Assembly: GCF_029338515.1 (NCBI RefSeq) | Contig: NZ_CP119988.1 | Span: 310,001 to 374,000 of the forward strand | DNA from: Haloglomus litoreum | Lineage (GTDB): Archaea; Halobacteriota; Halobacteria; Halobacteriales; Haloarculaceae | Direction: 5' to 3' | Length of the DNA stretch: 64,000 nt | Part shown: positions 29,611 through 42,492 of the stretch, piece by piece | How the letters are laid out: each line of letters begins with the position of its first letter | Position numbering within the stretch: the stretch's first letter is position 1 | Notes under the pieces: generated by a model | Databases searched by the model: none | Told to the model about the DNA's origin: nothing | The model's input: the letters and a program-made list of their open reading frames with translations, nothing else | Made by a program: the position numbers and the translations under genes

Positions 29611-30642
29611 TCAGCCGAGCAGACCGAAGATGCCCAGGATCCAGCGACCGACCTCCGACGCCGTGAACAGCGCCCCCTCGAGCCGTGACAGCACGCGCTC
29701 CGTCCAGAGGGCGGCCACCATGACGAGGCTGATGACGGCCAGCCACGCCAGCGTCTCCAGGGCCGTCCCGCTGATCACGAGCGGCCGGAGGAGCGCCGCG
29801 ACGCCCAGGATGCCGGTGATGTTGTAGATGTTGCTCCCGATGACGTTGCCGACCGAGACGCCGAGGCTCCCGCGCCTGAGCGCCACCAGCGAGACGGCGA
29901 ACTCCGGCGTCGAGGTCCCGGCGGCGACGATGGTGCCGCCGATGACCCACTCCGAGATGCCGGCACTCCGCGCCAGCGACGACGCCGCCACCACCATGAA
30001 GTCCCCGCTCACGAGCACCAGCGCCAGCCCGCCGACCAGGAAGGCGGCGTCGCGCCCCCGGAACTGCACCCGCTCGGTGACGGCCCGCGTCACCGCCGGG
30101 GCGACATCGTCGGCCGGCTCCGCCCCGCTCGGCGGCGACGGGGCGGCGCTGCCCTCCTCGCCCGTGTTCGGGCCCTCGTCGTCACCCTGCGTCCGGAGCA
30201 GGTACACCGTGTAGACGACGAACGAGCCCGCCAGGAGGGCGCCCTCCAGCCGGGAGACGGAGAGGTCGAGGACGGCGACGCCACCGACCAGCGTGCTCGC
30301 CAGCAGCGCGACCCCGTCACGGCGGACGAGCGGTTCGGCGACGGGGATGACCCGCAGCAGCGAGATGACGCCCAGGATGAACGCCAGGTTGTAGACGTTC
30401 GACCCGAGGACGTTGGCGACGGCGAGGTCGCCCAGCCCCTTGAGCGCCGCGTCGACCGACACCGCCAGCTCCGGGGTCGAGGTCCCCATCGCCACGATGG
30501 TGAGGCCGATGGTGAGCTCCGAGAGGCCGAACCGGCGTGCCAGCCGGACCACCGCGTCGACGAGGACCCGTGCGCCGACCCAGAGTCCGAGTACGGTCAC
30601 GACGATGACGCCGACCTGAACGGCGGGGCCGCCCTGGACCAT
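29611..30642 (-). CDS. Sodium/calcium exchanger, CaCA family
   Basis: The 343-residue membrane protein has two alpha repeats in opposite halves: GTSTPELAVSVDAALKG with NVLGSNVYNLAFILG (about residues 53-90), and AGTSTPEFAVSLVALRRG with NVIGSNIYNITGILG (about 240-280). Each contains the essential Glu and the GSN motif. The halves are joined by an acidic cytosolic loop (about 150-180). It likely exports Ca2+ using the Na+ gradient. A paralogue lies at 40971-41951. CTTGATT about 32 nt upstream on the minus strand is a possible box. Confidence 0.9.
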   Translation of the reverse strand: MVQGGPAVQVGVIVVTVLGLWVGARVLVDAVVRLARRFGLSELTIGLTIVAMGTSTPELAVSVDAALKGLGDLAVANVLGSNVYNLAFILGVISLLRVIPVAEPLVRRDGVALLASTLVGGVAVLDLSVSRLEGALLAGSFVVYTVYLLRTQGDDEGPNTGEEGSAAPSPPSGAEPADDVAPAVTRAVTERVQFRGRDAAFLVGGLALVLVSGDFMVVAASSLARSAGISEWVIGGTIVAAGTSTPEFAVSLVALRRGSLGVSVGNVIGSNIYNITGILGVAALLRPLVISGTALETLAWLAVISLVMVAALWTERVLSRLEGALFTASEVGRWILGIFGLLG

Positions 30643-30719: not shown

Positions 30720-30726
30720 GTTATGC
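30720..30726 (+). promoter_or_regulatory. TATA-like box of the Nudix-eIF2B gene
   Basis: GTTATGC lies 24-30 nt before the ATG at 30750. It overlaps the in-frame ATG at 30723, which argues against that start. Confidence 0.45.
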
Positions 30727-30749
30727 CCGGGGGCGTCGACAGACCGACC

Positions 30750-32126
30750 ATGAGCGACGAGGGCGAGGAGGCCGACGGCGCCAGCGCCGACGCGGACGAA
30801 ACCGGGGTCGTCACGGTCTTCCTGCGGAACGACTCCGACGTCCTCCTCTGCCGCCGGAGCGACGCGGTCGGCTCGTACTCGGGGCAGTGGGGCGCGGTCG
30901 CGGGCCACGCCGAGGGCGACCCCGGGCGGCTGGCGCGCGAGGAGATCAGCGAGGAGACCGGCATCGACCCCGACGACTGCGCGTTCGTCCGGCGCGGCCC
31001 CTCGTTTCCCGTCGAGGACCCCGACCACGGAACCTGGCGCGTCACGCCGTTCCTGTTCGACTGTCCCACCCGCGAGGTGACGACCAACCGCGAGACGACC
31101 GAGCACGAGTGGGTCCAGCCGCCGGCCATCCTCGACCGCGAGACCGTCCCGCGGCTGTGGGAGTCCTACCGCCGGGTCGCGCCCACGGTGGCGGACGTGC
31201 GCGAGGACCGCGAGCACGGCTCGGAGTACGTCTCCCGGCGTGCGGTGGAGGTGTTGCGCGACGCCGCGGCGGCGCTCGACGCGGGCGTCGACGCGCCGGT
31301 GGACCTGCCGGACTGGGCGGACTGGTCCCGGCTCGCCACACTCGCCGACGCGTTGCTCGTGGCCCGCGAGAGCATGGCCGTCGTCGGGAACCGGGTGGAC
31401 CGGGCGATGTGGCTCGCTGCCGGCGAGCACGAGCACGGCTGGGACGGGTCGTACGGCACGCCGGTCCGGTCGGCCGGGGCCGTCCGGCAGACGGCCGAGC
31501 ACGTCCTCGCGAACCTGGAACCCGCCCAGCGTCGGCTCGTGGGTGACGCCCGCCGGGCGGACTGGGGCGACGGCGTCGTGGCGACACTGTCGCGCTCCGG
31601 GACCGTCCGCTCGGTGCTGGAGGCGGTGGCTGCCAGGGTCGTCGTCGCGGAGTCGCGCCCCGGCGGCGAGGGCCGGGCGGTCGCGCGTGCCCTCGCGGAC
31701 GCGCTCATCGCGCCGGTCACGCTGTGTGCGGACGCGGGCGTGGCCCACGCGCTGGACGCGTGCGACGCCGACGCCGTCCTCGTCGGCGCGGACACGGTGC
31801 TGGTGGACGGCTCGGTCGTCAACAAGGTCGGGACGCGGACGCTGGCGAGTGCCGCGGCCGCGGGCGACGTGCCCGTCTACGTCGCGACACACACGGACAA
31901 GGTGGCGCCGGCCGGGCACGAGACCGACCTCGAACCCCGCGACGCCGGCGAACTGCTGGGCGACGACGAGGCGCCCGCCGGCCTCCGCGTCGAGAACCCC
32001 ACGTTCGACGTGACGCCGCCCGCGCTGGTCGACGGCTACTGTACCGAGGCGGGGTTCCTCGACGCGGGTGCGATACGGAGGGTGGCCGAACGGGCCGCCG
32101 AGCACGCCGACTGGCCCCGGCCGTAA
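30750..32126 (+). CDS. Nudix hydrolase fused to eIF2B-like domain
   Basis: The 458-residue protein joins two enzymes. Residues about 20-145 form a Nudix fold, with a box reading GHAEGDPGRLAREEISEETG; the EE..EE.G core is present but the spacing to the first Gly is two residues shorter than the classical box. Residues about 190-450 resemble the eIF2B/ribose-1,5-bisphosphate isomerase family, with VLVGADTVLVDGSVVNKVGT and ATHTDKVAPAGHE near the substrate site. eIF2B-like proteins in archaea serve in nucleoside/pentose-bisphosphate breakdown, so the fused Nudix half may supply the sugar phosphate (inference). Confidence 0.85.
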   Translation: MSDEGEEADGASADADETGVVTVFLRNDSDVLLCRRSDAVGSYSGQWGAVAGHAEGDPGRLAREEISEETGIDPDDCAFVRRGPSFPVEDPDHGTWRVTPFLFDCPTREVTTNRETTEHEWVQPPAILDRETVPRLWESYRRVAPTVADVREDREHGSEYVSRRAVEVLRDAAAALDAGVDAPVDLPDWADWSRLATLADALLVARESMAVVGNRVDRAMWLAAGEHEHGWDGSYGTPVRSAGAVRQTAEHVLANLEPAQRRLVGDARRADWGDGVVATLSRSGTVRSVLEAVAARVVVAESRPGGEGRAVARALADALIAPVTLCADAGVAHALDACDADAVLVGADTVLVDGSVVNKVGTRTLASAAAAGDVPVYVATHTDKVAPAGHETDLEPRDAGELLGDDEAPAGLRVENPTFDVTPPALVDGYCTEAGFLDAGAIRRVAERAAEHADWPRP

Positions 32127-32185: not shown

Positions 32186-33055
32186 ATGTCCGCTGTTCCC
32201 GAGCGCCCGGTCGTGCTGGTCGGCGAGGAGGACGCCGCCGCGGCCACGACGGCCGCCCTCCGCGACCTCCGGGGTGGGGGCGCGACGGCGGCGGTGCTCG
32301 TCGCCCCGACACCCGACGCCGCCGACGCTGCTGCCGACGCCGCGAGGGACTCGCCGCTGTCGGTCGACCTGGTGGTCGCCACCCCCGACGCACTGCCGAC
32401 GGGCGACGGCCGGGTCCTGGCCGCCCCCGACGTCGAGGGCGCGCCCGCCGCCGCCGAGCGGGTCCCGGTCCCGCGTGCCGTCCGGCACCGGCCTCTCGTT
32501 CACGACGGCGGCGCCGCCCGGTTCGTCGGCGTGTTCGCGCTGTCGTTCGGTTTCTACCTCCTGCTGGGCGACCCGACGGACCCGTTCGACCTCGTCACCG
32601 GCGCGGTGACGGCGACGCTGGCGGGCGTCCTGCTGTCGCCCATCGTCTTCGAGACGCCGCCCGCTGCCGGCCGGACGCTCCCCCGCGCCGCCCGCGCGAC
32701 CGTGTTCCTCCCGTACCTCCTGTTCGAGGTGTTGCGCGCGAACCTGTCCGTCGCGCGGGTCATCCTCGACCCGTCGCTCCCCATCGAGCCCTCGATGGTC
32801 GAGGTGCCCCACGACGCCCGCTCCGGCCTGGAGCGGGCGGTGCTGGCCAACGCGGTCACGCTCACGCCCGGCACGCTGACCGTCGATGTCGACGAGCGCC
32901 GGCTCCGGGTCCACGCGCTCACGTCGGCCTCCCGGACGGACCTGCAGGCGGGCGCGCTCGCCCGTGCGGTGGCGTTCGTCTTCCACGGCCGTGGGGGCCC
33001 CGACGGCGCGTCGGCCGGCGGGGACGAGCGCCGTGACGAGGGGGTGGTCCGGTGA
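32186..33055 (+). CDS. mrpE: Mrp-type Na+/H+ antiporter subunit E with N-terminal extension
   Basis: The 289-residue protein is longer than a usual MrpE (about 160). The MrpE part (about residues 110-270) has membrane helices, then FLPYLLFEVLRANLSVARVI and LANAVTLTPGTLTVDVDE, the family signature. The first 105 residues are soluble, Ala/Asp-rich, begin VVLVGEEDAAAA and resemble a degenerate stress-protein-like strand-helix unit. It is the first gene of the antiporter operon and its end overlaps mrpF by four bases. Confidence 0.88.
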   Translation: MSAVPERPVVLVGEEDAAAATTAALRDLRGGGATAAVLVAPTPDAADAAADAARDSPLSVDLVVATPDALPTGDGRVLAAPDVEGAPAAAERVPVPRAVRHRPLVHDGGAARFVGVFALSFGFYLLLGDPTDPFDLVTGAVTATLAGVLLSPIVFETPPAAGRTLPRAARATVFLPYLLFEVLRANLSVARVILDPSLPIEPSMVEVPHDARSGLERAVLANAVTLTPGTLTVDVDERRLRVHALTSASRTDLQAGALARAVAFVFHGRGGPDGASAGGDERRDEGVVR

Positions 33056-33330
33056 CGCTGCTCGCCGACGGGCTGCTGGTCGCCGCGGCCGCGCTCGTCG
33101 TCCTCGGCCTGGGTGCCGGGCACCGCCTGTTCCGGGGCCCGACCGTGCAGGACCGCGTCATCGCGGCCAACGCGATGGGCACGACGACGGTGGTCGTCAT
33201 CGCGCTGCTGGGGGCCGCGCTGGGCGAGCCGGGCTACCTGGACGTGGCGCTCGTCTACGCGCTGCTCAACTTCCTGCTCTCGGTCGGGCTGGCGAAGTAC
33301 GTCGTCGAGCGTGGGGGGGTGCTCCAGTGA
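33052..33330 (+). CDS. mrpF: Mrp antiporter subunit F
   Basis: The 92-residue protein has three membrane helices and the family segment RLFRGPTVQDRVIAANAMGT after the first helix. MrpF is a small integral subunit of the multi-protein Na+/H+ antiporter. The start is a GTG that overlaps the mrpE stop (GTGA), and its end overlaps mrpG in the same way. Confidence 0.9.
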   Translation: MTLLADGLLVAAAALVVLGLGAGHRLFRGPTVQDRVIAANAMGTTTVVVIALLGAALGEPGYLDVALVYALLNFLLSVGLAKYVVERGGVLQ

Positions 33331-33755
33331 CGACCCCCGGGACGGTGGCCGCGCTGGCGCTGGCGGCGGGCGCCGTCGGCTTCACGGCCATCGCGGTGGT
33401 CGGGCTCTTCCGGCTCCCGGACTGCTACAGCCGCGCCCACGCCACCTCGAAGAGCGACACGCTGGGCGCGCTGCTGGCCGTCCTCGCCGCGGCCGTCGCC
33501 TTCGCCGAGCCGACCACGACGCTCAAACTCGGCGCGCTGTTCCTCTTCCTCCTCCTCACGGGCCCGACCGCGGCCCACGCCATCGTCCGGTCGGCCGACG
33601 ACCAGGGTGTCGAGCCGTGGGCGCGCGCGGTCGCCGACGGCCCCGGTGGCGACCCCGACGACGGGGCAGCGCCGACCCCGACCGATGGTGGCGAGGAGCC
33701 CCGGTCGGAGCCACGTCGGGGAGGGGAGCGAGCCGACGGTGGTGAGCGGCCGTGA
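33327..33755 (+). CDS. mrpG: Mrp antiporter subunit G
   Basis: The 142-residue protein has three membrane helices with FRLPDCYSRAHATSKSDTLG after the first, the clear MrpG signature. The C-terminal 45 residues are a hydrophilic, Pro/Gly/Asp-rich tail that bacterial MrpG lacks. The GTG start overlaps the mrpF stop, and the end overlaps the next gene. Confidence 0.9.
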   Translation: MTTPGTVAALALAAGAVGFTAIAVVGLFRLPDCYSRAHATSKSDTLGALLAVLAAAVAFAEPTTTLKLGALFLFLLLTGPTAAHAIVRSADDQGVEPWARAVADGPGGDPDDGAAPTPTDGGEEPRSEPRRGGERADGGERP

Positions 33756-34288
33756 CGGTGGGTCTCGTCGAGGCGGCGCTGCTGGGGTTCGTCCTCGTGG
33801 TGGCCGTCGCCACGGCGCTCGCCCGCGACACGCTGGTCGCCGTGGTCGTGTTCGCGCCGTACAGCCTCGGCATGGCGGGCCTGTGGCTGGTCTATCACGC
33901 GCCCGACGTGGCGCTGACGGAGGCCGCCGTCGGCGCCGCAGTCACCACCTCCCTGTTCGTCGTCACGCTCCAGCGGACCACCCGCCCGGACGGCGTCGGC
34001 GACACGTTCGCGTTCGACCCCGACCCCCGGTCGCTGGTGGTCGTCGGGGCGTTCGTCGGGGCGCTGCTCGCGACGGTGCCGGCGCTCCCGCCGGTCGGCA
34101 CGGCGCCGGGACTCCGCGACGGTGGCGCGGGCGCGTACTACCTCGCCAACGCCGCCGACTTCGCGGTGAAGAACGTCGTCACCTCGGTGCTGGTCGCGTT
34201 CCGCGGGTTCGACACGTTCGGCGAGGTGGCGGTCGTGTTCGCCGCCGGCCTCGCGGTGCTCGTCGTGCTCGGGAGGGAGACGCCGTGA
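33752..34288 (+). CDS. Mrp subunit equivalent to the MrpA C-terminal part (DUF4040/MbhE)
   Basis: The 178-residue membrane protein has a DUF4040/MbhD-like part (residues about 5-75, with YHAPDVALTEAAVGAA) and an MbhE-like part with FAVKNVVTSVLVAFRGFDTFGE (about 135-155). In bacterial Mrp these lie at the C-terminus of the large MrpA. Here they form a separate gene, as in Mbh-type and other archaeal complexes. The NuoL-like half of MrpA must come from one of the D-type genes downstream. Confidence 0.85.
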   Translation: MTVGLVEAALLGFVLVVAVATALARDTLVAVVVFAPYSLGMAGLWLVYHAPDVALTEAAVGAAVTTSLFVVTLQRTTRPDGVGDTFAFDPDPRSLVVVGAFVGALLATVPALPPVGTAPGLRDGGAGAYYLANAADFAVKNVVTSVLVAFRGFDTFGEVAVVFAAGLAVLVVLGRETP

Positions 34289-34698
34289 GACCGTACCGTG
34301 ACAGCGTCGTCGTCGCCAAGACCGTCCGGGCGGTGGCGCCGTTCGTGTTCACCTTCGGCCTGTTCACCATGTTCCACGGCACGAAGTCGGTCGGCGGTGG
34401 GTTCCAGGGTGGCGTGGTAGTCGCGGCGCTCGTGGTGACGCTCGCGTTCGCGTTCGGCGTCGAGCAGACCTGGGCCGGCCTCGACGCTCGCGCGCTGGTC
34501 GTCGTCGCCGCGGCCGGCGTCCTCGTGTTCGGGTTCGTCGCGCTGGGGTCGCTGGCGCTCGCCGGGTCGTTCCTCGACGTGACCGCGTTCCCCGGCTCGC
34601 CCGCCTACCCCATCGAGGCAGTCGAACTCGGCATCGGCGTCGCCGTCGCGACCGTCATCAGCGTCGTCTTCTTCGAACTCGCGGGGGTGGGCTCGTGA
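34285..34698 (+). CDS. mrpB: Mrp antiporter subunit B
   Basis: The 137-residue protein has four membrane helices with the family stretch APFVFTFGLFTMFHGTKSVG (about residues 18-37) and GGFQGGVVVAA. MrpB works in the channel part of the antiporter. The GTG start overlaps the preceding stop, and the end overlaps mrpC. Confidence 0.9.
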   Translation: MRPYRDSVVVAKTVRAVAPFVFTFGLFTMFHGTKSVGGGFQGGVVVAALVVTLAFAFGVEQTWAGLDARALVVVAAAGVLVFGFVALGSLALAGSFLDVTAFPGSPAYPIEAVELGIGVAVATVISVVFFELAGVGS

Positions 34699-35048
34699 GC
34701 GTCGCCGCCTACGTCGTGGCGGTCCTCCTCGCGGGCATCGGCCTGTTCGTCCTCGTCGACGACCGGAGCCTCGTGAAGAAGGTGCTCGGGCTGAACGTGT
34801 TCCAGACCGGCATCTTCCTCTTCTTCATCGCGGGGGGTGACCGGACCGGCGGTGCCGCGCCGCTGCTGACGAACGACCCGCCGTACGTCGACCCCGTCCC
34901 GGCGGTGCTCATCCTCACCGCCGTCGTCGTCGGCGTGAGCGTCACGGGCGTCGCGCTGGCGCTGCTCGTCCGCATCTACGACGAGTACGGCACGCTCGAC
35001 GCCGCGGTGCTGGGCACCCGGCGCGACGACGAGGTGGGTGACCGATGA
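34695..35048 (+). CDS. mrpC: Mrp antiporter subunit C (NuoK-like)
   Basis: The 117-residue protein has three helices. KKVLGLNVFQTGIFLFF (about residues 28-44) and PVPAVLILTAVVVGVSVTGV (about 69-88) match MrpC/NuoK. The start is GTG in a four-base overlap, and its stop overlaps the ATG of the first D-type subunit. Confidence 0.9.
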   Translation: MSVAAYVVAVLLAGIGLFVLVDDRSLVKKVLGLNVFQTGIFLFFIAGGDRTGGAAPLLTNDPPYVDPVPAVLILTAVVVGVSVTGVALALLVRIYDEYGTLDAAVLGTRRDDEVGDR

Positions 35049-36613
35049 GCGCCGTCGACCCGACGCTGCTGGTCGCGCTGCCACTGCTGGCGAGCGTGGT
35101 GCCGCCGATGCTCGCGTTCGTCCGCGACCGCGCGGGCTGGCCGGTGGCGCTCGTGACGCTGCTCGCACAGACGGCGCTCGCCGCGACGCTGGCCGTCGAG
35201 GTCGTCACCCGTGGCCCCGTGGTCGTCGAGGTCGGGAACATCCCGGCCCCGTTCGGCATCCGGCTCGTCGTCGACGCGCTGTCGGCCCCGTTCGTCCTGC
35301 TGGTGGCGGTCGTCGCGCTCGCCGTGCTCGGGTACACCCGCGTCGCCGGCCCCCGCTCGGCGCCGTTCTACGGGCTCTACCTCCTGCTCGTCGCCGGCCT
35401 CACCGGGGTCTGTCTCACGGCCGACCTGTTCAACCTCTACGTCTTCCTCGAGATCAGCGGCCTCGCCTCGTACGCGCTGGTCGCGCGGAGTCCCGGCGGC
35501 GACGCCGCCGTCGCCGCGCTGCGCTACCTCCTGCTCGGCACGGTCGGTGCGTCGCTGTACCTGTTCGGCGTGGGGTACGCCTACCTCGCGACGGGGACCC
35601 TGTCGATGGCGGCGTTCGGGGCCAGGGTCGCCGGCTCGCCGGGGACGCTGGTGCTCGCGGCGTTCGCCCTCGTGGCGGCCGGGCTGGGCGTGAAGATGGC
35701 GCTCTACCCGCTGCACACCTGGAAACCGCCGGCGTACGCCGCCGCGCCGACCGGCGTGAGTGCGCTGCTGGCGGCACTGGCCTCGACCGTGGCCGCCTAC
35801 GCGCTCGCCCGCCTCCTCCTGTCGGCGTTCGGCGCGACCCTCCTCGAGCGGGTGCCGGCCGTCCGGACGCTGCTGCTGACGGCGGCCGTCGTCAGCATCG
35901 TCGCTGGCGCGTTGCTGGCCGCCCGCGAACCCGTCGTCCGCCGGCGGCTGGCCTACTCCTCGGTCTCGCAGTTCGGCATCGTTCTCGTGGGCGTCGCCCT
36001 GGCATCGTCGCCCGGCGTGACCGGGGCCGTCGTCCACCTCGTCGGCCACGCCGTCATGAAGGGCGGCGCCTTCCTCGCGGCCGGGCTCGTCGCGACGCAG
36101 TACGGTGCGGTCCGGGTCGACGACTACGCCGGGCTGGCACGGCGCGCGCCCGCAGTGAGCGCGGCGCTCGCCGTGCTGCTGCTGGGGCTCGTCGGCATCC
36201 CGCCGACGGTGGGGTTCGCCGGCAAGTTCTACGTCGCGCTGGCGGCCGCCGAGGCCGGCGCCTGGATCCCGCTGGCGGCGGTCGTCGCGAGCACGCTGTT
36301 CTCGCTGGCCTACCTGGCGCCGCTGCTCCAGCGGATGTACGTCGAGCCGCCCGCTCATCGACCCGACGCCGACGGCACCGCGGACGGTCACGGCGGCGAC
36401 GACCACGACGGCGGTGATACCGACGGCGCCCCGGCCGCGCCCGGCGACGGCGCGAGCGGGCCGGTGACCGCCGTGTCCACGGGCGAGCCGGGTACCGTCT
36501 CGGTCGGCATGGTCGCCGTCGTCGTCGCGGCGGGGGTCGCGACGGTGGTACTGGGCGCGGTCGCCCCGACCGTCGAGGCGCTGCTGGCGCCGTTCCTGGA
36601 GGTGGTGCTGTGA
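35045..36613 (+). CDS. mrpD: Mrp antiporter subunit D, first copy
   Basis: The 522-residue protein is a proton-translocating NuoL/M/N-type subunit with about 14 helices. LFNLYVFLEISGLASYALVA (about residues 129-148) holds the conserved Glu in the channel helix, VKMALYPLHTWKPPAYAAAP holds the Lys/His loop, and RRRLAYSSVSQFGIVLVGV contains a further conserved motif. It is the smallest of three D-type genes in a row and has a His/Asp-rich loop near the C-terminus (about 435-465). Confidence 0.9.
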   Translation: MSAVDPTLLVALPLLASVVPPMLAFVRDRAGWPVALVTLLAQTALAATLAVEVVTRGPVVVEVGNIPAPFGIRLVVDALSAPFVLLVAVVALAVLGYTRVAGPRSAPFYGLYLLLVAGLTGVCLTADLFNLYVFLEISGLASYALVARSPGGDAAVAALRYLLLGTVGASLYLFGVGYAYLATGTLSMAAFGARVAGSPGTLVLAAFALVAAGLGVKMALYPLHTWKPPAYAAAPTGVSALLAALASTVAAYALARLLLSAFGATLLERVPAVRTLLLTAAVVSIVAGALLAAREPVVRRRLAYSSVSQFGIVLVGVALASSPGVTGAVVHLVGHAVMKGGAFLAAGLVATQYGAVRVDDYAGLARRAPAVSAALAVLLLGLVGIPPTVGFAGKFYVALAAAEAGAWIPLAAVVASTLFSLAYLAPLLQRMYVEPPAHRPDADGTADGHGGDDHDGGDTDGAPAAPGDGASGPVTAVSTGEPGTVSVGMVAVVVAAGVATVVLGAVAPTVEALLAPFLEVVL

Positions 36614-38307
36614 CCGCCACGGCGAGCCTCCTGCCGCTGGCGGCGGTGCTGCTGCCGGCGCTCGCCGTCGGCCCCATCCTCGCCACGCGCCACCGGCCGA
36701 ACGTGCGCGAGGCGTGGACCTTCCTCGCCGGTGGCGGGACGCTCGTCCTCGCCGGACTGCTCGCACGGGCCGTGCTGGCGGGCGCCCGCCCGACGACCGA
36801 CCTCGGGACGTACGTCGGGGGGGTCGGGTTCGTCCTCCGGGTGGACCCGTTCGGCACGCTGTTCGGCCTGCTGGCGGCGACGCTGTGGCTCGTCACCAGC
36901 GTCTACAGCGTCGGCTACATGCGGGGGCTCGACGAGCACGGGCAGGGGCGCTACTTCGCCGCCTTCGCCGCCAGCATCGCCGCCACGCTCGGCGTCGCGT
37001 TCGCGGGCAACCTCCTGACCCTGTTCGTCGCCTACGAACTGCTGACGGTCGCCACGTACCCGCTCGTCGTCCACGCCGGCACCGACGACGCGCGCGCCGC
37101 CGGCCGCCAGTACCTCGCCTACACCCTGGCGGGTGGTGCTGCCGTCTTCGCGGGGCTCGTCCTGGTCTACCTGCTCGCGGGGTCGGTTGCGTTCGTCCCC
37201 GGCGGCCTGGCCGGCGTCGCGTCCGACCCGGCGCTGGCGCGGGTCGCGTTCGGCCTCCTCGTCCTCGGCTTCGGCGTCAAGACCGCCGTCGTCCCGCTGC
37301 ACACGTGGCTCCCGAACGCGATGGTGGCGCCGACGCCCGTCTCCGGGCTGCTCCACGCCGTCGCCGTCGTCAAGAGCGGCGCCTTCGGCCTCGGCCGGGT
37401 CGTCGCCTACGTGTTCGGTCCCGACGCGGTGACCGGCCTCGGGGTCGGCCTGCCGCTCGCCGTGCTCGCCGCGACGACGATGCTGTACGCCGGCGTGCTG
37501 GCGCTCCGGCGCGAGAAACTGAAGCAGGCGCTCGCCTACTCGACTGTGTCCCAGCTCTCGTACATCGCGCTGGGGTTCGCCCTCGCCGGGCGGCTGTCGA
37601 CGTTCGGCGCGATCCTGCACATCCCCGCCCACGCGTTCATGAAGATCACCCTCTTCTTCGTCGCCGGCCTCGTCTACGTCGAGACCGGCGCGACCTACCG
37701 CGACGAACTCGCCGGCATCGCCCGTCGGCTCCCGGTGACGATGACCGCGTTCGCCGTCGCCGCCGCCGGACTGGCCGGGTTCCCGCTGGTGGCGGGCTTC
37801 GTCAGCAAGTGGTACATGGTGCTGGGCGCGCTGGCGACCGACCCCGGCTTCGGCGCCGTCTACCTGCTGGCGGGGGGGCTGAAGCTGCTGCTGTTCTGGC
37901 CCATCGTCGCGTCGGCCTTCTTCACCGACCCCGAGGAGGCCGAGGACCCCGCCCACGACGCCGCCGCGGCGCCGCACGGTGGCGCCCCGGTCGCGTCGGA
38001 CGGCGGGTCGGCCACCCCGGGCGACGGCACAGACGGGCCGGCCGAGGCCCCCGGCGACGGCACGAGCGGACCGAGCGGCGACCTGGGTGGTGACGACCCC
38101 GCTGGCGACGACTACCACGCGGGCCACGGGTCGCTGCCGCCGGCCGGCGGCTGGACCCGGCCGGCGTCGTTCCGCGAGGCGCCGCCCGCCCTGCTCGGCC
38201 CGGTGGTGGCCGTCGCCGTCGGCGCGGTCGTCCTCGGCGTTGTGCCCGACTGGCTCCCGCTGTGGGACCTCGCGGAGGCGACAGTGGCGGAGGTGTTCGG
38301 GCCGTGA
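36610..38307 (+). CDS. Mrp antiporter subunit D, second copy (NuoL-like)
   Basis: The 565-residue protein has VYSVGYMRGLDEHGQGRYFA (about residues 98-117), then LLTLFVAYELLTVATYPLVV with the key Glu and VKTAVVPLHTWLPNAMVAPT. YSVGYM is typical of NuoL/MrpA-like subunits, so this gene may replace the N-terminal part of MrpA. A very hydrophilic Asp/Gly/His-rich loop lies at about 435-520. It overlaps both neighbours by a few bases. Confidence 0.88.
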   Translation: MTATASLLPLAAVLLPALAVGPILATRHRPNVREAWTFLAGGGTLVLAGLLARAVLAGARPTTDLGTYVGGVGFVLRVDPFGTLFGLLAATLWLVTSVYSVGYMRGLDEHGQGRYFAAFAASIAATLGVAFAGNLLTLFVAYELLTVATYPLVVHAGTDDARAAGRQYLAYTLAGGAAVFAGLVLVYLLAGSVAFVPGGLAGVASDPALARVAFGLLVLGFGVKTAVVPLHTWLPNAMVAPTPVSGLLHAVAVVKSGAFGLGRVVAYVFGPDAVTGLGVGLPLAVLAATTMLYAGVLALRREKLKQALAYSTVSQLSYIALGFALAGRLSTFGAILHIPAHAFMKITLFFVAGLVYVETGATYRDELAGIARRLPVTMTAFAVAAAGLAGFPLVAGFVSKWYMVLGALATDPGFGAVYLLAGGLKLLLFWPIVASAFFTDPEEAEDPAHDAAAAPHGGAPVASDGGSATPGDGTDGPAEAPGDGTSGPSGDLGGDDPAGDDYHAGHGSLPPAGGWTRPASFREAPPALLGPVVAVAVGAVVLGVVPDWLPLWDLAEATVAEVFGP

Positions 38308-40046
38308 TGGGGGCCCCGCTCGGCACGACGGCCCCGGCCGCGCCGCTCACCGCGCTCCCGCCGGCACTCCTCGTCCTGGCGGCGGCGGTCGTCGTCGCCG
38401 TGGTCCCGCGCCGGGCCGGCACCGCCGTCGGCGCGCTCGCGGCCGCCGCGGTCGTCCCGTGGGTGCTGACCGTCCCGGCCGGCGACCACCTCCGGACGAC
38501 GCTGTTCGGCTTCGATGCCGTCCTGTTCGCGGTGGACGGGACCGCGCGCGTCGTCGCGCTCGCGCTGGGCCTCGTGACGACGGCGGGGGTGCTGTACGCC
38601 CACGACTCCGGCACGACGCGTCGCGAGCTGGCGACCCTGCTCGGCTACGTCGGCGCGGGCCTCGGCGCGGTGTTCGCGGGCGACTGGCTCTCGCTGGTCG
38701 TCTGGTGGGAGCTGCTGGCGGTCGGCGGGACGCTGCTGCTGTGGCGCTCGCCGTCCGCCGATGGCCGGGCGGCGGGCTACCGCTACGCCGTCTACCACCA
38801 GGTCGGGGGCGCGCTGCTCGTGGCGGGGGTGTTGCTCCACTACACCGCCGCCGGGTCGTTCCTGTACGAGGGTGGCATCACGGCCGGCCTGCCGCGGCTG
38901 CTCGCGGTGCTGGGCGTGGGACTCAACGTCGGGTTCATCGGCCTCCACGTCTGGCTCCCGGACAGCTACCCGCGGGCGGGTGTCGCCGTCTCGGTCGTCC
39001 TCTGTGGCGTCACGACGAAGGTCGCCGTCTACGCGCTGCTCCGTGTCGTCCCCGGCCGGAGCCTCGCGCTGGCGTGGGCCGGCGCCGCCATGCTCGCCGT
39101 CGGGGTGACGCTGGCGGTCCTCCAGACGGAGACCCGGCGACTGCTCACCTACCACATCGTCTCGCAGGTGGGGTACATGGTGGCCGGCGTCGGCCTCGCC
39201 TCGCCGCTCGGGACCGGGGGCGCGCTCGCCCACCTGCTCAACAACGTCCTCTACAAGTCGCTGCTGTTCATGGTGGCCGGCGTCGTCCTGCTCCGGACCG
39301 GCGAGGAGCGGTTGAAGAAGCTCGGCGGACTCGGCCGGGCGATGCCCGCCACCGCGGCCGCGTTCACCGTCGCCGCGCTCGCCATCACCGGCATCCCCGG
39401 GTTCTCCGGGTTCGTCAGCAAGGGGATGGTCATCGGCGCCGCCGACGCGCCGGGGACCCGACTGCTCTGGTGGGTGCTGCTGGTCGGCGGCGTCGGGACG
39501 GTCGTCTCGTTCACGAAGTTCGGCTACTACGCGTTCGTCCGGAGCGCCGACCACGCCGCCGTCGAGCCCGACGGGACCGCCGCCCCGGGCCACCTCGCCG
39601 CGTTCGCCATCGTCGGCGTGCCGTGCGTCGTCTTCGGGGTCGCCCCGGAGCTGTTGCTGGGGCTGCTCCCGACCGGCGCGTCGTCGGCGAAGGTGTTCGC
39701 GGTATCGCAGTTCGAGAAGGCGGGTGCCACGCTCCTCGCCGGGCTGGTCGTGTTCGCGCTGGTGAAGCGGCCGCTCGGACGGCTCCCGGCCGCGCCCGAC
39801 CTCGACTCGCTCTACCACCCCGCCGGCGCGCGGCTCCGCGACGGCGTCGCCCGCCGCACGGACGAGGCGGCCGGGTGGCTGCTGACCCGGGGCGAGCGGG
39901 TGGTCGCGGCGCTCGCTCGCGTCGCCGACGGGGGCCGTGGGCCGTCGAGTGCCGCCCGGCTCGGGCTCCCCACGGACCCGTTCGGCCGGGGGGTCCTCCT
40001 GCTCGCGGCGGTCGCGGCGGTCGCCGTGGCGGTGGCGGTGCTGTGA
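38307..40046 (+). CDS. Mrp antiporter subunit D, third copy
   Basis: The 579-residue protein has the D-type elements in order: WLSLVVWWELLAVGGTLLLW with the Glu (about residues 129-148), FIGLHVWLPDSYPRAG, and RLLTYHIVSQVGYMVAGVG. The usual Lys of the first loop (VKT..PLH) is not kept: here it reads NVGFIGLHVWLPD. It is therefore the most divergent of the three and may have a changed ion path. The start overlaps the previous stop (TGATG). It ends the Mrp operon. Confidence 0.87.
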   Translation: MGAPLGTTAPAAPLTALPPALLVLAAAVVVAVVPRRAGTAVGALAAAAVVPWVLTVPAGDHLRTTLFGFDAVLFAVDGTARVVALALGLVTTAGVLYAHDSGTTRRELATLLGYVGAGLGAVFAGDWLSLVVWWELLAVGGTLLLWRSPSADGRAAGYRYAVYHQVGGALLVAGVLLHYTAAGSFLYEGGITAGLPRLLAVLGVGLNVGFIGLHVWLPDSYPRAGVAVSVVLCGVTTKVAVYALLRVVPGRSLALAWAGAAMLAVGVTLAVLQTETRRLLTYHIVSQVGYMVAGVGLASPLGTGGALAHLLNNVLYKSLLFMVAGVVLLRTGEERLKKLGGLGRAMPATAAAFTVAALAITGIPGFSGFVSKGMVIGAADAPGTRLLWWVLLVGGVGTVVSFTKFGYYAFVRSADHAAVEPDGTAAPGHLAAFAIVGVPCVVFGVAPELLLGLLPTGASSAKVFAVSQFEKAGATLLAGLVVFALVKRPLGRLPAAPDLDSLYHPAGARLRDGVARRTDEAAGWLLTRGERVVAALARVADGGRGPSSAARLGLPTDPFGRGVLLLAAVAAVAVAVAVL

Positions 40047-40092
40047 GTCGTCTCCCCCACGTGTTTTTGTCGACCCGCGGTGACACGTCGGT

Positions 40093-40488
40093 ATGCCTCG
40101 CCGACCCGACTACGACGGGTTCGTCGACTGGCTCCGGGAGTCGTTCGACGACGACCTCCGCTGGACCGCCAGCTTCGACCACGAGACGTTCGACTACGAC
40201 GTCCACCACGTCCGTCAGGACCTGAAGACGGAGTTGACCGGCCATCAGCTCGACACCATCATCCACCGCTCCATCGCGCTGTTCAACCGCGACCGCGTCG
40301 ACGACGTGTACTTCCACCTCGGCGACGCGGAGGCGCTGGTCGCCCAGCACGAACGCGCGGTCGCCGTCCACCTCTACCTCGACGCCGAGCGGGCCGTGGT
40401 CGTGATGCTCGAGAAGGGCGCCGAGGTCACCCTGCCGACGTTCCCGGCGGAGTGCCTGGAGCGACTGGGCGTCGAGGCGGACGGATGA
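40093..40488 (+). CDS. Uncharacterised haloarchaeal protein upstream of KhtT-like gene
   Basis: The 131-residue soluble, acidic protein starts RPDYDGFVDWLRESFDDDLR and has DYDVHHVRQDLKTELTG, then HLGDAEALVAQHERAVAVHLYLD. It has no known domain that I can name and no membrane segment. It ends in an ATGA overlap with the KhtT-like gene and so probably works with it. A run of five T at 40064-40068, about 27 nt upstream, could be its promoter box or a terminator of the Mrp operon. Confidence 0.75.
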   Translation: MPRRPDYDGFVDWLRESFDDDLRWTASFDHETFDYDVHHVRQDLKTELTGHQLDTIIHRSIALFNRDRVDDVYFHLGDAEALVAQHERAVAVHLYLDAERAVVVMLEKGAEVTLPTFPAECLERLGVEADG

Positions 40489-40967
40489 GGGTCTTCGACA
40501 CGCAGCTCCCCGGCGTCGGCGAGCGGTTCACGGTGCGCTTCGGCCACGGTGGCGAGCTCGTCGTCCTCGTCCGGAACCAGGGCGGGCGGGAGGTGTTCTG
40601 GCGCGGGGACGCCGACGGCGACAGCGAGGAGCTGTTCGAACTCACGGAGCGTCAGGCCCGGAAACTGGCGGAGATCTTCGACGGCACCTACTTCCAGCCG
40701 GTCGACGAGGACGTCGAGTCCGTGCTGGAGGACGCCGTCGTCGAGTGGGTCGAGGTCGACGCCGACGCGCCGCTGGCCGGCCGCACGCTGGGCGAGGCCG
40801 ACGTCCGCCGCCGGACGGGCGTGACGGTGCTGGCGGTCCAGCGCGGCCAGCGGACCCACGCAAACCCGGACGCCTCCTTCGGCGTCCGGGCCGGCGACGT
40901 GCTGGTCGCGGTCGGCGAGCCGGACGCGCACGACGACCTGGAGGCGTACCTGGCGGGCGGCGACTGA
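40485..40967 (+). CDS. KhtT-like K+/H+ antiporter regulatory subunit (RCK_C)
   Basis: The 160-residue protein matches KhtT in two parts. The N-terminal domain has TQLPGVGERFTVRF and FELTERQARKLAEIFDGTY (about residues 5-75). The C-terminal TrkA-C/RCK_C domain (about 85-158) has VEVDADAPLAGRTLGEADV and FGVRAGDVLVAVGEPDAH. KhtT regulates the KhtU K+/H+ antiporter and in bacteria its RCK_C domain can bind c-di-AMP. KhtU is not present here. Instead a CaCA exchanger starts three bases after its stop. Confidence 0.85.
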   Translation: MRVFDTQLPGVGERFTVRFGHGGELVVLVRNQGGREVFWRGDADGDSEELFELTERQARKLAEIFDGTYFQPVDEDVESVLEDAVVEWVEVDADAPLAGRTLGEADVRRRTGVTVLAVQRGQRTHANPDASFGVRAGDVLVAVGEPDAHDDLEAYLAGGD

Positions 40968-40970
40968 CCC

Positions 40971-41951
40971 GTGGCGGCCGACGCTGCCCTCGTTGCCGAC
41001 GTCCTCGGGGTCGGCGCGGCGGTGGTCGCGCTGTGGGTCGGGGCGCTCCTGTTCGTCCGTGGCGCGGCCGGACTCGCGGCGGCCGTCGGTGTCCCGCCGC
41101 TCGTCGTCGGGCTGACGGTCGTCGGCTTCGGTACCTCGGCGCCCGAACTCGTCACCTCCGTCGACGCCGCGCTCGTCGGCCGGCCGGACGTGGCCGTCGG
41201 CAACGTCGTCGGCTCGAACCTGTTCAACTTCGGCATCGTCCTCGGCGGAGTCCTCCTACTCGGTGCGGTGCCGGTCGCCGAGAGCCTCCGCCGCCGCGAC
41301 GGCCCGGCGGTCGTCATCGCGACGGTCGCACTGGCACTCGTTCTGGCGGACCTGCGGCTGACCCGGCCCGAGGGGCTGGCGCTACTCGCCCTGTTCGTGG
41401 GTTACCTCGCCGTCCTGCTCCGGGGGACGCTCCGCGAGGCCGGTGCCACCGCCGAGGCGCGGGCGCTCGACTCGGCGATGCCCGATGCCTCCGGGCGCGT
41501 CGGGCTGCTGGTGCGTGTCGTCGTCGGCCTCGGACTGATCCTGTTCGGCGCGGATCTGCTGGTCCGGTCGGCGGTCGACCTGGCGCGACTGGCGGGGCTC
41601 TCGGAGTGGGTCATCGGTGAGACGGTCGTGGCGGCGGGCACCTCCGCGCCCGAGATTGCGGCCTCGCTCGTCGCCGCGCGCCGGGGGCTCGGCGACGTGG
41701 CCGTCGGCAACCTCGTCGGCAGCAACGTCTTCAACGGGCTGGTCGTGCTCGGCGCGGCCGGCCTCGTCGCGCCGGCGACCGTCACCCCGGCGGCGATTCC
41801 GACGGTCGTCTGGCTGGTCGGCCTCACACTGGTGGTGGCGGGCTTCCTCTGGACCGGCAGCCGCTTCGCCCGCGCGGAGGGTGTCGTCTGTCTGCTCGCC
41901 AACGGCGGCCGCTGGGTGCTGGATCTGCTCGGTCGCGGCGTGGCGGGCTGA
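40971..41951 (+). CDS. Sodium/calcium exchanger, CaCA family (second copy)
   Basis: The 326-residue membrane protein has both alpha repeats: FGTSAPELVTSVDAALVG with NVVGSNLFNFGIVLG (about residues 56-97), and AGTSAPEIAASLVAARRG with NLVGSNVFNGLVVLG (about 222-262). It lacks the long acidic loop of the copy at 29611-30642 and has a short linker instead. The GTG start is three bases after the stop of the KhtT-like gene, so the two are coupled. It presumably exchanges Na+ for Ca2+ and may be controlled by the KhtT-like protein (inference). Confidence 0.88.
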   Translation: MAADAALVADVLGVGAAVVALWVGALLFVRGAAGLAAAVGVPPLVVGLTVVGFGTSAPELVTSVDAALVGRPDVAVGNVVGSNLFNFGIVLGGVLLLGAVPVAESLRRRDGPAVVIATVALALVLADLRLTRPEGLALLALFVGYLAVLLRGTLREAGATAEARALDSAMPDASGRVGLLVRVVVGLGLILFGADLLVRSAVDLARLAGLSEWVIGETVVAAGTSAPEIAASLVAARRGLGDVAVGNLVGSNVFNGLVVLGAAGLVAPATVTPAAIPTVVWLVGLTLVVAGFLWTGSRFARAEGVVCLLANGGRWVLDLLGRGVAG

Positions 41952-41952
41952 C

Positions 41953-42492
41953 TCAGTCGGCCCTCGGTGGCTCCTCGTAGTCGTCCGTGTACGGCTCCTC
42001 GATGTCGGTGTCGCCGCCGAGCGCGGTGCCGAGCGAGCGCGTCAGCAGGTCGAACGGGACGACCAGCGGGAGCAGCGCCCGCTCGACCAGCCGGATGGGT
42101 CGGGCGACGATGGGTGCGTACCGCTCGGCGTTGCCAAGGCCGAACGACTTCGGGACGATCTCGCCGAAGACGAGGACGACCGACCCCGCGAGCAGGGTCG
42201 TCGCGGCCACCGCGACGCCGCCGGAAACGTACTGGGCCAGCAGGACGGTCACGATGCTCGACAGCGCCACGTTGACGAGGTTGTTCCCGACGAGCAGCGT
42301 CACGAGCAGCCGGTGTGGGTTCTCGCGCAGTCGGGCCAGCGCGCGGGCGTCGCCGTCGCCCGTGGCGGCGCGCTCGTCGATCCACTCGGGCGACAGCGAG
42401 AAGACGGCGATCTCGCTGCTGGAGAAGAAGGCACTCAACGCGAGGAGCACGACGATACTCGCGACACCGACGACGACGAAGGACCCGACCAT
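41953..42492 (-). CDS. DUF21/CNNM-type transmembrane protein without CBS domains
   Basis: The 179-residue protein contains the DUF21 membrane domain with FFSSSEIAVFSLSPEWIDE at the N-terminus, HRLLVTLLVGNNLVNVALSS in the second helix region and VLVFGEIVPKSFGLGNAERY before the last helix. CNNM/CorC proteins normally continue with two CBS domains and a CorC_HlyC domain. This gene stops after the membrane part, just short of where CBS would begin, with an acidic tail. It could be a short family member or one half of a split pair. Confidence 0.82.
   Translation of the reverse strand: MVGSFVVVGVASIVVLLALSAFFSSSEIAVFSLSPEWIDERAATGDGDARALARLRENPHRLLVTLLVGNNLVNVALSSIVTVLLAQYVSGGVAVAATTLLAGSVVLVFGEIVPKSFGLGNAERYAPIVARPIRLVERALLPLVVPFDLLTRSLGTALGGDTDIEEPYTDDYEEPPRAD

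Follow-up and report, generated by a model that had tools for sequence, protein, structure and literature searches.

The locus described here raises the question of whether a KhtT-like RCK_C subunit, whose usual partner is a CPA2 K+/H+ antiporter, has become coupled to an exchanger of the CaCA class. The locus lies in a stretch of 64,000 nucleotides (the whole stretch that was analysed, referred to as the window) on the 4.70 Mb chromosome of a haloarchaeon, a single contig in an assembly that is 97% complete. The gene pairing is unusual and real, with weak conservation, and the control of the CaCA exchanger by KhtT is what we infer from it. Tentatively, we prefer the reading that the KhtT subunit gates the exchanger, possibly through c-di-AMP, and we regard this as a fair candidate that falls short of being probable.

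Organization of the Locus

On the same strand, an Mrp operon is followed by a gene for a 131-aa protein (g131), a KhtT-like gene and a CaCA exchanger gene, with the following positions in the window:

32190–40046 (start approximate), plus strand: Mrp (Mnh) multisubunit antiporter operon, from Pfam and NCBIfam matches for its subunits
40064–40068, plus strand: T-tract TTTTT, putative TATA-like element, its first base 29 nt upstream of the g131 ATG
40093–40488, plus strand: g131, 131 aa, conserved haloarchaeal protein with relatives mostly after MrpD and a predicted Roadblock/LC7 fold
40485–40967, plus strand: KhtT-like subunit, KhtT N-domain and RCK_C, haloarchaeal clade B (7agv match, TrkA_C, tree)
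40971–41951, plus strand: CaCA exchanger, sodium/calcium-type, TIGR00367, two Na_Ca_ex repeats (Pfam, TIGR00367, NCX_Mj)

The initial annotation had placed the cluster after a large Na+/H+ antiporter operon, and the Pfam and NCBIfam matches agree with this, as they identify MnhE, MrpF, MnhG, MbhD/E, MnhB, a 4L/MrpC-type gene and three Proton_antipo_M genes. The coordinates likewise agree with its description of an uncharacterised gene overlapping the start of KhtT and of an exchanger beginning three bases past it: g131 and KhtT share 4 nt (ATGA), and the KhtT stop codon (40965–40967) is separated from the GTG of the CaCA gene by a 3-base gap. Because of this overlap and this spacing, g131, KhtT and CaCA would form one coupled unit.

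Convergent with the CaCA gene, 41953–42492 (minus strand) encodes a protein with the CNNM N-terminal membrane domain only, and 30723–32126 holds an ORF in which a NUDIX domain is fused with one of the IF-2B family. A second CaCA exchanger, belonging to a different CaCA clade, is found approx. 10 kb off (29611–30642, minus strand), and the third CaCA gene of the genome is at C1:3939060.

Identity of the Subunit and the Exchanger

The KhtT-like gene starts with an ATG at 40485 and encodes 160 aa. Residues 3–146 match the Bacillus subtilis KhtT (PDB 7agv) with E 5.2e-21 and approx. 30% identity, a match that spans both the KhtT N-terminal domain and RCK_C and so confirms the domain composition first assigned to the gene, and Pfam TrkA_C scores 57.1 bits on residues 86–156 (cut-off 27). 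By its domains (N-domain then RCK_C, circa 160 aa) the protein is a KhtT. The adjoining CPA2 KhtU gene is missing, as had been noticed from the start, and the neighbours are g131 and CaCA; with no CPA2 gene in the cluster and no orphan KhtU in the genome, the locus does not belong to the KhtTU K+/H+ systems. Fold matches of the KhtT model were set aside, since the model was poor (pLDDT 70.7), and the sequence match was used instead.

The exchanger has a GTG start and 326 aa, and it scores 199.1 bits against TIGR00367 (cut-off 179.65) and 184.9 bits against Na_Ca_ex over two stretches. It aligns with NCX_Mj across both alpha repeats (E 8.9e-30), and with GTSAPE in both repeats (the GTSxPE pattern) it is a member of TIGR00367. 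At the place that we take to be D240 of NCX_Mj the window protein seems to have N, in a part of the alignment that is gapped.

KhtTU of Bacillus subtilis (KhtT PDB 7agv) and CpeAB of Streptomyces are like the window in that a KhtT-type gene and a cation exchanger gene form one unit, but their exchanger is CPA2 (PF00999), whereas that of the window is CaCA (PF01699). The window exchanger in turn resembles the NCX_Mj (MJ0091)/YrbG-type CaCA proteins of TIGR00367 over both alpha repeats and, unlike them, is encoded in the same operon as an RCK_C subunit of KhtT type.

The KhtU of the Genome and the Origin of the Subunit

Since the initial annotation had proposed looking for an orphan KhtU, the genome was searched with the PF00999 profile for CPA genes. 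Four were found, only one of which is KhtU-like (C1:45064–46155, minus strand): it is 39–60% identical to nine KhtU proteins of other genomes, the other three giving weak or partial matches. Directly upstream of this KhtU, and abutting it, is its own KhtT of 180 aa, which is approx. 50% identical to the window KhtT. A KhtU is therefore present, but with a KhtT of its own, and neither the PF00999 search nor the nine foreign KhtU queries revealed an orphan KhtU in the assembly, so the window KhtT is left without an unpaired KhtU, which argues for CaCA as its partner.

Fifty haloarchaeal KhtT proteins were placed in a tree and labelled from their flanking genes, where the label "none" means no match to the genome's own KhtU as query, and where two rows (L072 and L121) were labelled KhtU by hand from tblastn. 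Two deep clades, A (27 rows) and B (23 rows), separate at 100/99. Every row of clade A is KhtU-adjacent, including the canonical KhtT of this genome, while the labels of clade B are KhtU-adjacent in 15 of the 23 rows, CaCA-adjacent in two (the window and Halobium salinum, G355), g131 only in one (G404) and none in five. Among these five, L116 has a CPA2-like ORF upstream of KhtT, and L049 and L051 are free-standing with no adjoining transporter, which counts against gating of CaCA by KhtT. The KhtT of the window forms a group with those of G355 and G400 (97/88), and with that of G355 alone at 93/33. As clade B is mostly CPA2-adjacent, the neighbour of the window KhtT has changed class; most simply, a regulator of the CPA2 type ended up next to a CaCA gene. 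The initial annotation went further and suggested a regulator moved to another transporter class; the change of neighbour class holds, while an action of KhtT on CaCA is conjecture.

The same tree bears on the alternative that KhtT acts in trans on the KhtU of the genome or on another transporter, or binds a ligand on its own, so that being in the operon would amount to co-expression only. The predominance of CPA2-adjacent genes in clade B, the free-standing copies and the existence of a KhtU in the genome would fit this, but that KhtU already has its abutting clade-A KhtT, and the two KhtT proteins differ in about half of their residues and belong to separate 100/99 clades. We consider action in trans rather unlikely.

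At five loci (L050, L052, L054, L055 and L056) the KhtU gene is flanked on both sides by KhtT genes, the two KhtT facing each other.

How Often KhtT and CaCA Adjoin

In the family sample of 146 genomes, KhtT matches (E 1e-15 or better) were present in 82 and CaCA matches (E 1e-40 or better) in 44, and a comparison of their coordinates by eye showed KhtT beside CaCA in the window genome (G000) only. One more pair, that of G355, came from the class sample of 391 genomes, in which part of the KhtT loci were opened and the searches had strict cut-offs, so that weaker pairs could be missed. Within the family of G355 (170 genomes) the pair occurs in G355 only, and none was seen in the family of G404 (125 genomes). 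Scans of named genomes gave no match for KhtT and nine loci for g131. Altogether, CaCA and KhtU queries were run against the flanks of 55 KhtT loci (50 + 3 + 2); CaCA adjoins KhtT at two of these, in one case as a broken gene, which counts against gating of the exchanger by KhtT.

KhtT and CaCA are both intact only in the window cluster, and the pairing is real but rare. It is not strictly unique, given the same order in Halobium salinum and a scar in Halorarius halobius (see below), which answers in part the question of co-occurrence raised at the outset; broad conservation was not borne out, with one of 146 family genomes and one genome elsewhere, and a general KhtT–CaCA pairing in haloarchaea was not found in the family and class samples. 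Among open-access papers, searched by title and start of abstract, no report of a KhtT–CaCA pair was found.

The g131 Family and the Mrp Operon

The gene upstream of KhtT had been called uncharacterised. This is right in that g131 has no Pfam or NCBIfam match at E 0.01, but it is no one-off and represents a conserved, usually Mrp-linked family. Strong relatives occur in six of the 146 family genomes, that of the window among them (E 3.1e-41 or better), and in 19 of the 391 class genomes (E 1e-12 or better), giving 20 genomes when the two sets are taken together. In 17 of these genomes MrpD is directly upstream of g131, but not in G355, G234 and a short contig of G358. KhtT comes next after g131 in three (G000, G355 and G404), to which the scar in Halorarius halobius (G065) can be added, and CaCA follows it in four (G000, G065, G353 and, broken, G355). 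The window is like the other haloarchaeal Mrp operons with a terminal g131 in having MrpD and then g131, and differs from them in the appended KhtT and CaCA genes, as the sole one of the 20 with all of them intact. At L126 and L021 an AsnC/Lrp-like gene (named by eye) comes after g131.

DUF7522 is weakly touched by five of 13 g131 members, and no Roadblock family appeared in their Pfam matches up to E 5. The AlphaFold model of g131 has a pLDDT of 89.9, and nearly all of its structure matches among the 50 rows shown are of Roadblock, MglB, Ragulator or Rag type, the best Roadblock match (VIA-align) having Z 11.6 and rmsd 2.8 over 112 residues. The predicted fold of g131 is Roadblock/LC7.

A different partner is conceivable: KhtT may act for Mrp or for g131, with CaCA as a passenger at the operon end. 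The position of g131 after MrpD in most genomes speaks for this, as does the adjoining of g131 and KhtT in G000, G355 and G404 (and in the G065 scar), G404 having Mrp–g131–KhtT without CaCA, an arrangement that also weighs against gating of CaCA. On the other hand, g131–KhtT of Halobium salinum has no Mrp upstream, KhtT is missing after g131 in 17 of the 20 genomes, and we know of no RCK-type regulator of Mrp. A service to Mrp or g131 is, in our estimate, doubtful.

At the cut-offs used, the other three genomes of the genus have neither g131 nor this MrpD, which counts against the gating of CaCA by KhtT. The block may accordingly be a recent assembly, and as a whole it was probably gained by this species.

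Relic Clusters in Halobium and Halorarius

In Halobium salinum (G355), g131 and KhtT are intact with the same ATGA overlap and are followed by a CaCA remnant, and this supports a former three-gene unit. The KhtT is 65% identical to that of the window. The remnant is out of frame near its start, in the first half, and has lost most of its second half; it is 80% identical to a second CaCA of the same genome (the best among 49 CaCA proteins) and 53% to the window CaCA. As the remnant is of another CaCA lineage, either KhtT and CaCA came together on two occasions, or one exchanger gave way to another at the same site.

Halorarius halobius (G065) has Mrp–g131–CaCA with no KhtT gene. An 11-codon frame starting MTVFET begins in the ATGA overlap and ends 3 nt before CaCA, which again favors an ancestral trio; an 18-nt pattern made from the KhtT starts of the window and G355 matches this frame with two mismatches, once in 19 kb, where 0.01 matches were expected. 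We read the frame as a scar left when the KhtT gene was deleted. The window CaCA falls in a 5-row clade with the CaCA proteins of Halorarius G065 and G066 (99/95). At least three genera thus seem to have had the three-gene unit. In both Halorarius genomes (L076 and L019) the same epimerase/dehydrogenase-like gene is downstream of CaCA, and in G066 no g131 or MrpD match is present in the 1.5 kb upstream of CaCA.

The relics also bear on whether a transferred KhtT gene was placed here by chance, with no functional link to its neighbours. The absence of g131 and MrpD from the other genus genomes, the rarity and the relics themselves could be taken that way; against it, three genera of two families share the order of the three genes, the type of overlap and the distance of the promoter, and the g131 and KhtT frames are intact in Halobium, so we find chance placement very improbable. 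What the relics do weaken is a strictly obligate pair or complex, because the two genes were lost separately: Halorarius lost KhtT and kept CaCA, while in Halobium CaCA is broken and KhtT kept. This counts against gating, and it is for this reason that every rival keeps some weight and that gating of CaCA by KhtT is preferred only tentatively.

A Putative Leaderless Promoter

The TTTTT at −29 of g131 is common to the window, G065 and G355, and G002 and G006 have it as well if their second in-frame ATG is the start. In the remaining 14 of the 19 examined g131 genes, L020 has a different AT-run nearby and the rest have no five-A/T run in the last 40 nt; the frequency of TTTTT in the examined loci is 7.9e-5 per base. 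Position −29 is the place of the TATA element for a leaderless haloarchaeal transcript. The shared T-tract, which argues in favor of a common unit, suggests that g131–KhtT–CaCA stands on its own behind Mrp and is probably transcribed from its own leaderless promoter.

Proposed Mechanism and c-di-AMP

To hypothesize, the three-gene unit of g131 (with its predicted Roadblock fold), KhtT and CaCA would be expressed from this promoter behind the Mrp operon, the KhtT-like subunit would bind the CaCA exchanger from the cytosol, and it would gate cation exchange as KhtT does on KhtU, in answer to a ligand (c-di-AMP is plausible) at the interface of its RCK_C dimer. We infer the use of the promoter, the physical interaction, the gating, the ligand and the ions moved. 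Genes can also come to lie next to each other behind a large antiporter operon without their products interacting, which counts against this mechanism. That an RCK_C subunit of the KhtT type has switched from gating CPA2 K+/H+ antiporters to CaCA, so that Na+/Ca2+-type exchange answers c-di-AMP, is the more demanding statement, and we hold it to be unlikely. If it were true, a CaCA exchanger would be gated by a nucleotide and haloarchaea would have an effector for c-di-AMP; if KhtT gates CaCA, the RCK_C subunit would be movable between unrelated exchanger folds, and haloarchaeal Ca2+ handling could come under nucleotide control.

For KhtTU, a paper that cites the original work on the system (Schrecker 2019; Cereija 2021) describes how c-di-AMP at the KhtT RCK_C dimer alters KhtT–KhtU binding and activity, and it gives a c-di-AMP signature with N where the window KhtT and 7agv have T (PMC10117811). 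D106, R108 and T114 of the window KhtT are identical to 7agv. The genome also encodes a diadenylate cyclase domain, which is in favor of a c-di-AMP response, and a passage of the H. volcanii DacZ paper leaves the c-di-AMP targets to future experiments (PMC6741144). The KhtT proteins that keep the D-x-R signature, that of the window included, are testable candidates for such targets. Both D and R of the c-di-AMP signature (D106 and R108 in the window protein) are kept in 10 of the 27 rows of clade A and in two of the 23 rows of clade B, the latter being just the two CaCA-adjacent proteins, which supports gating of the exchanger.
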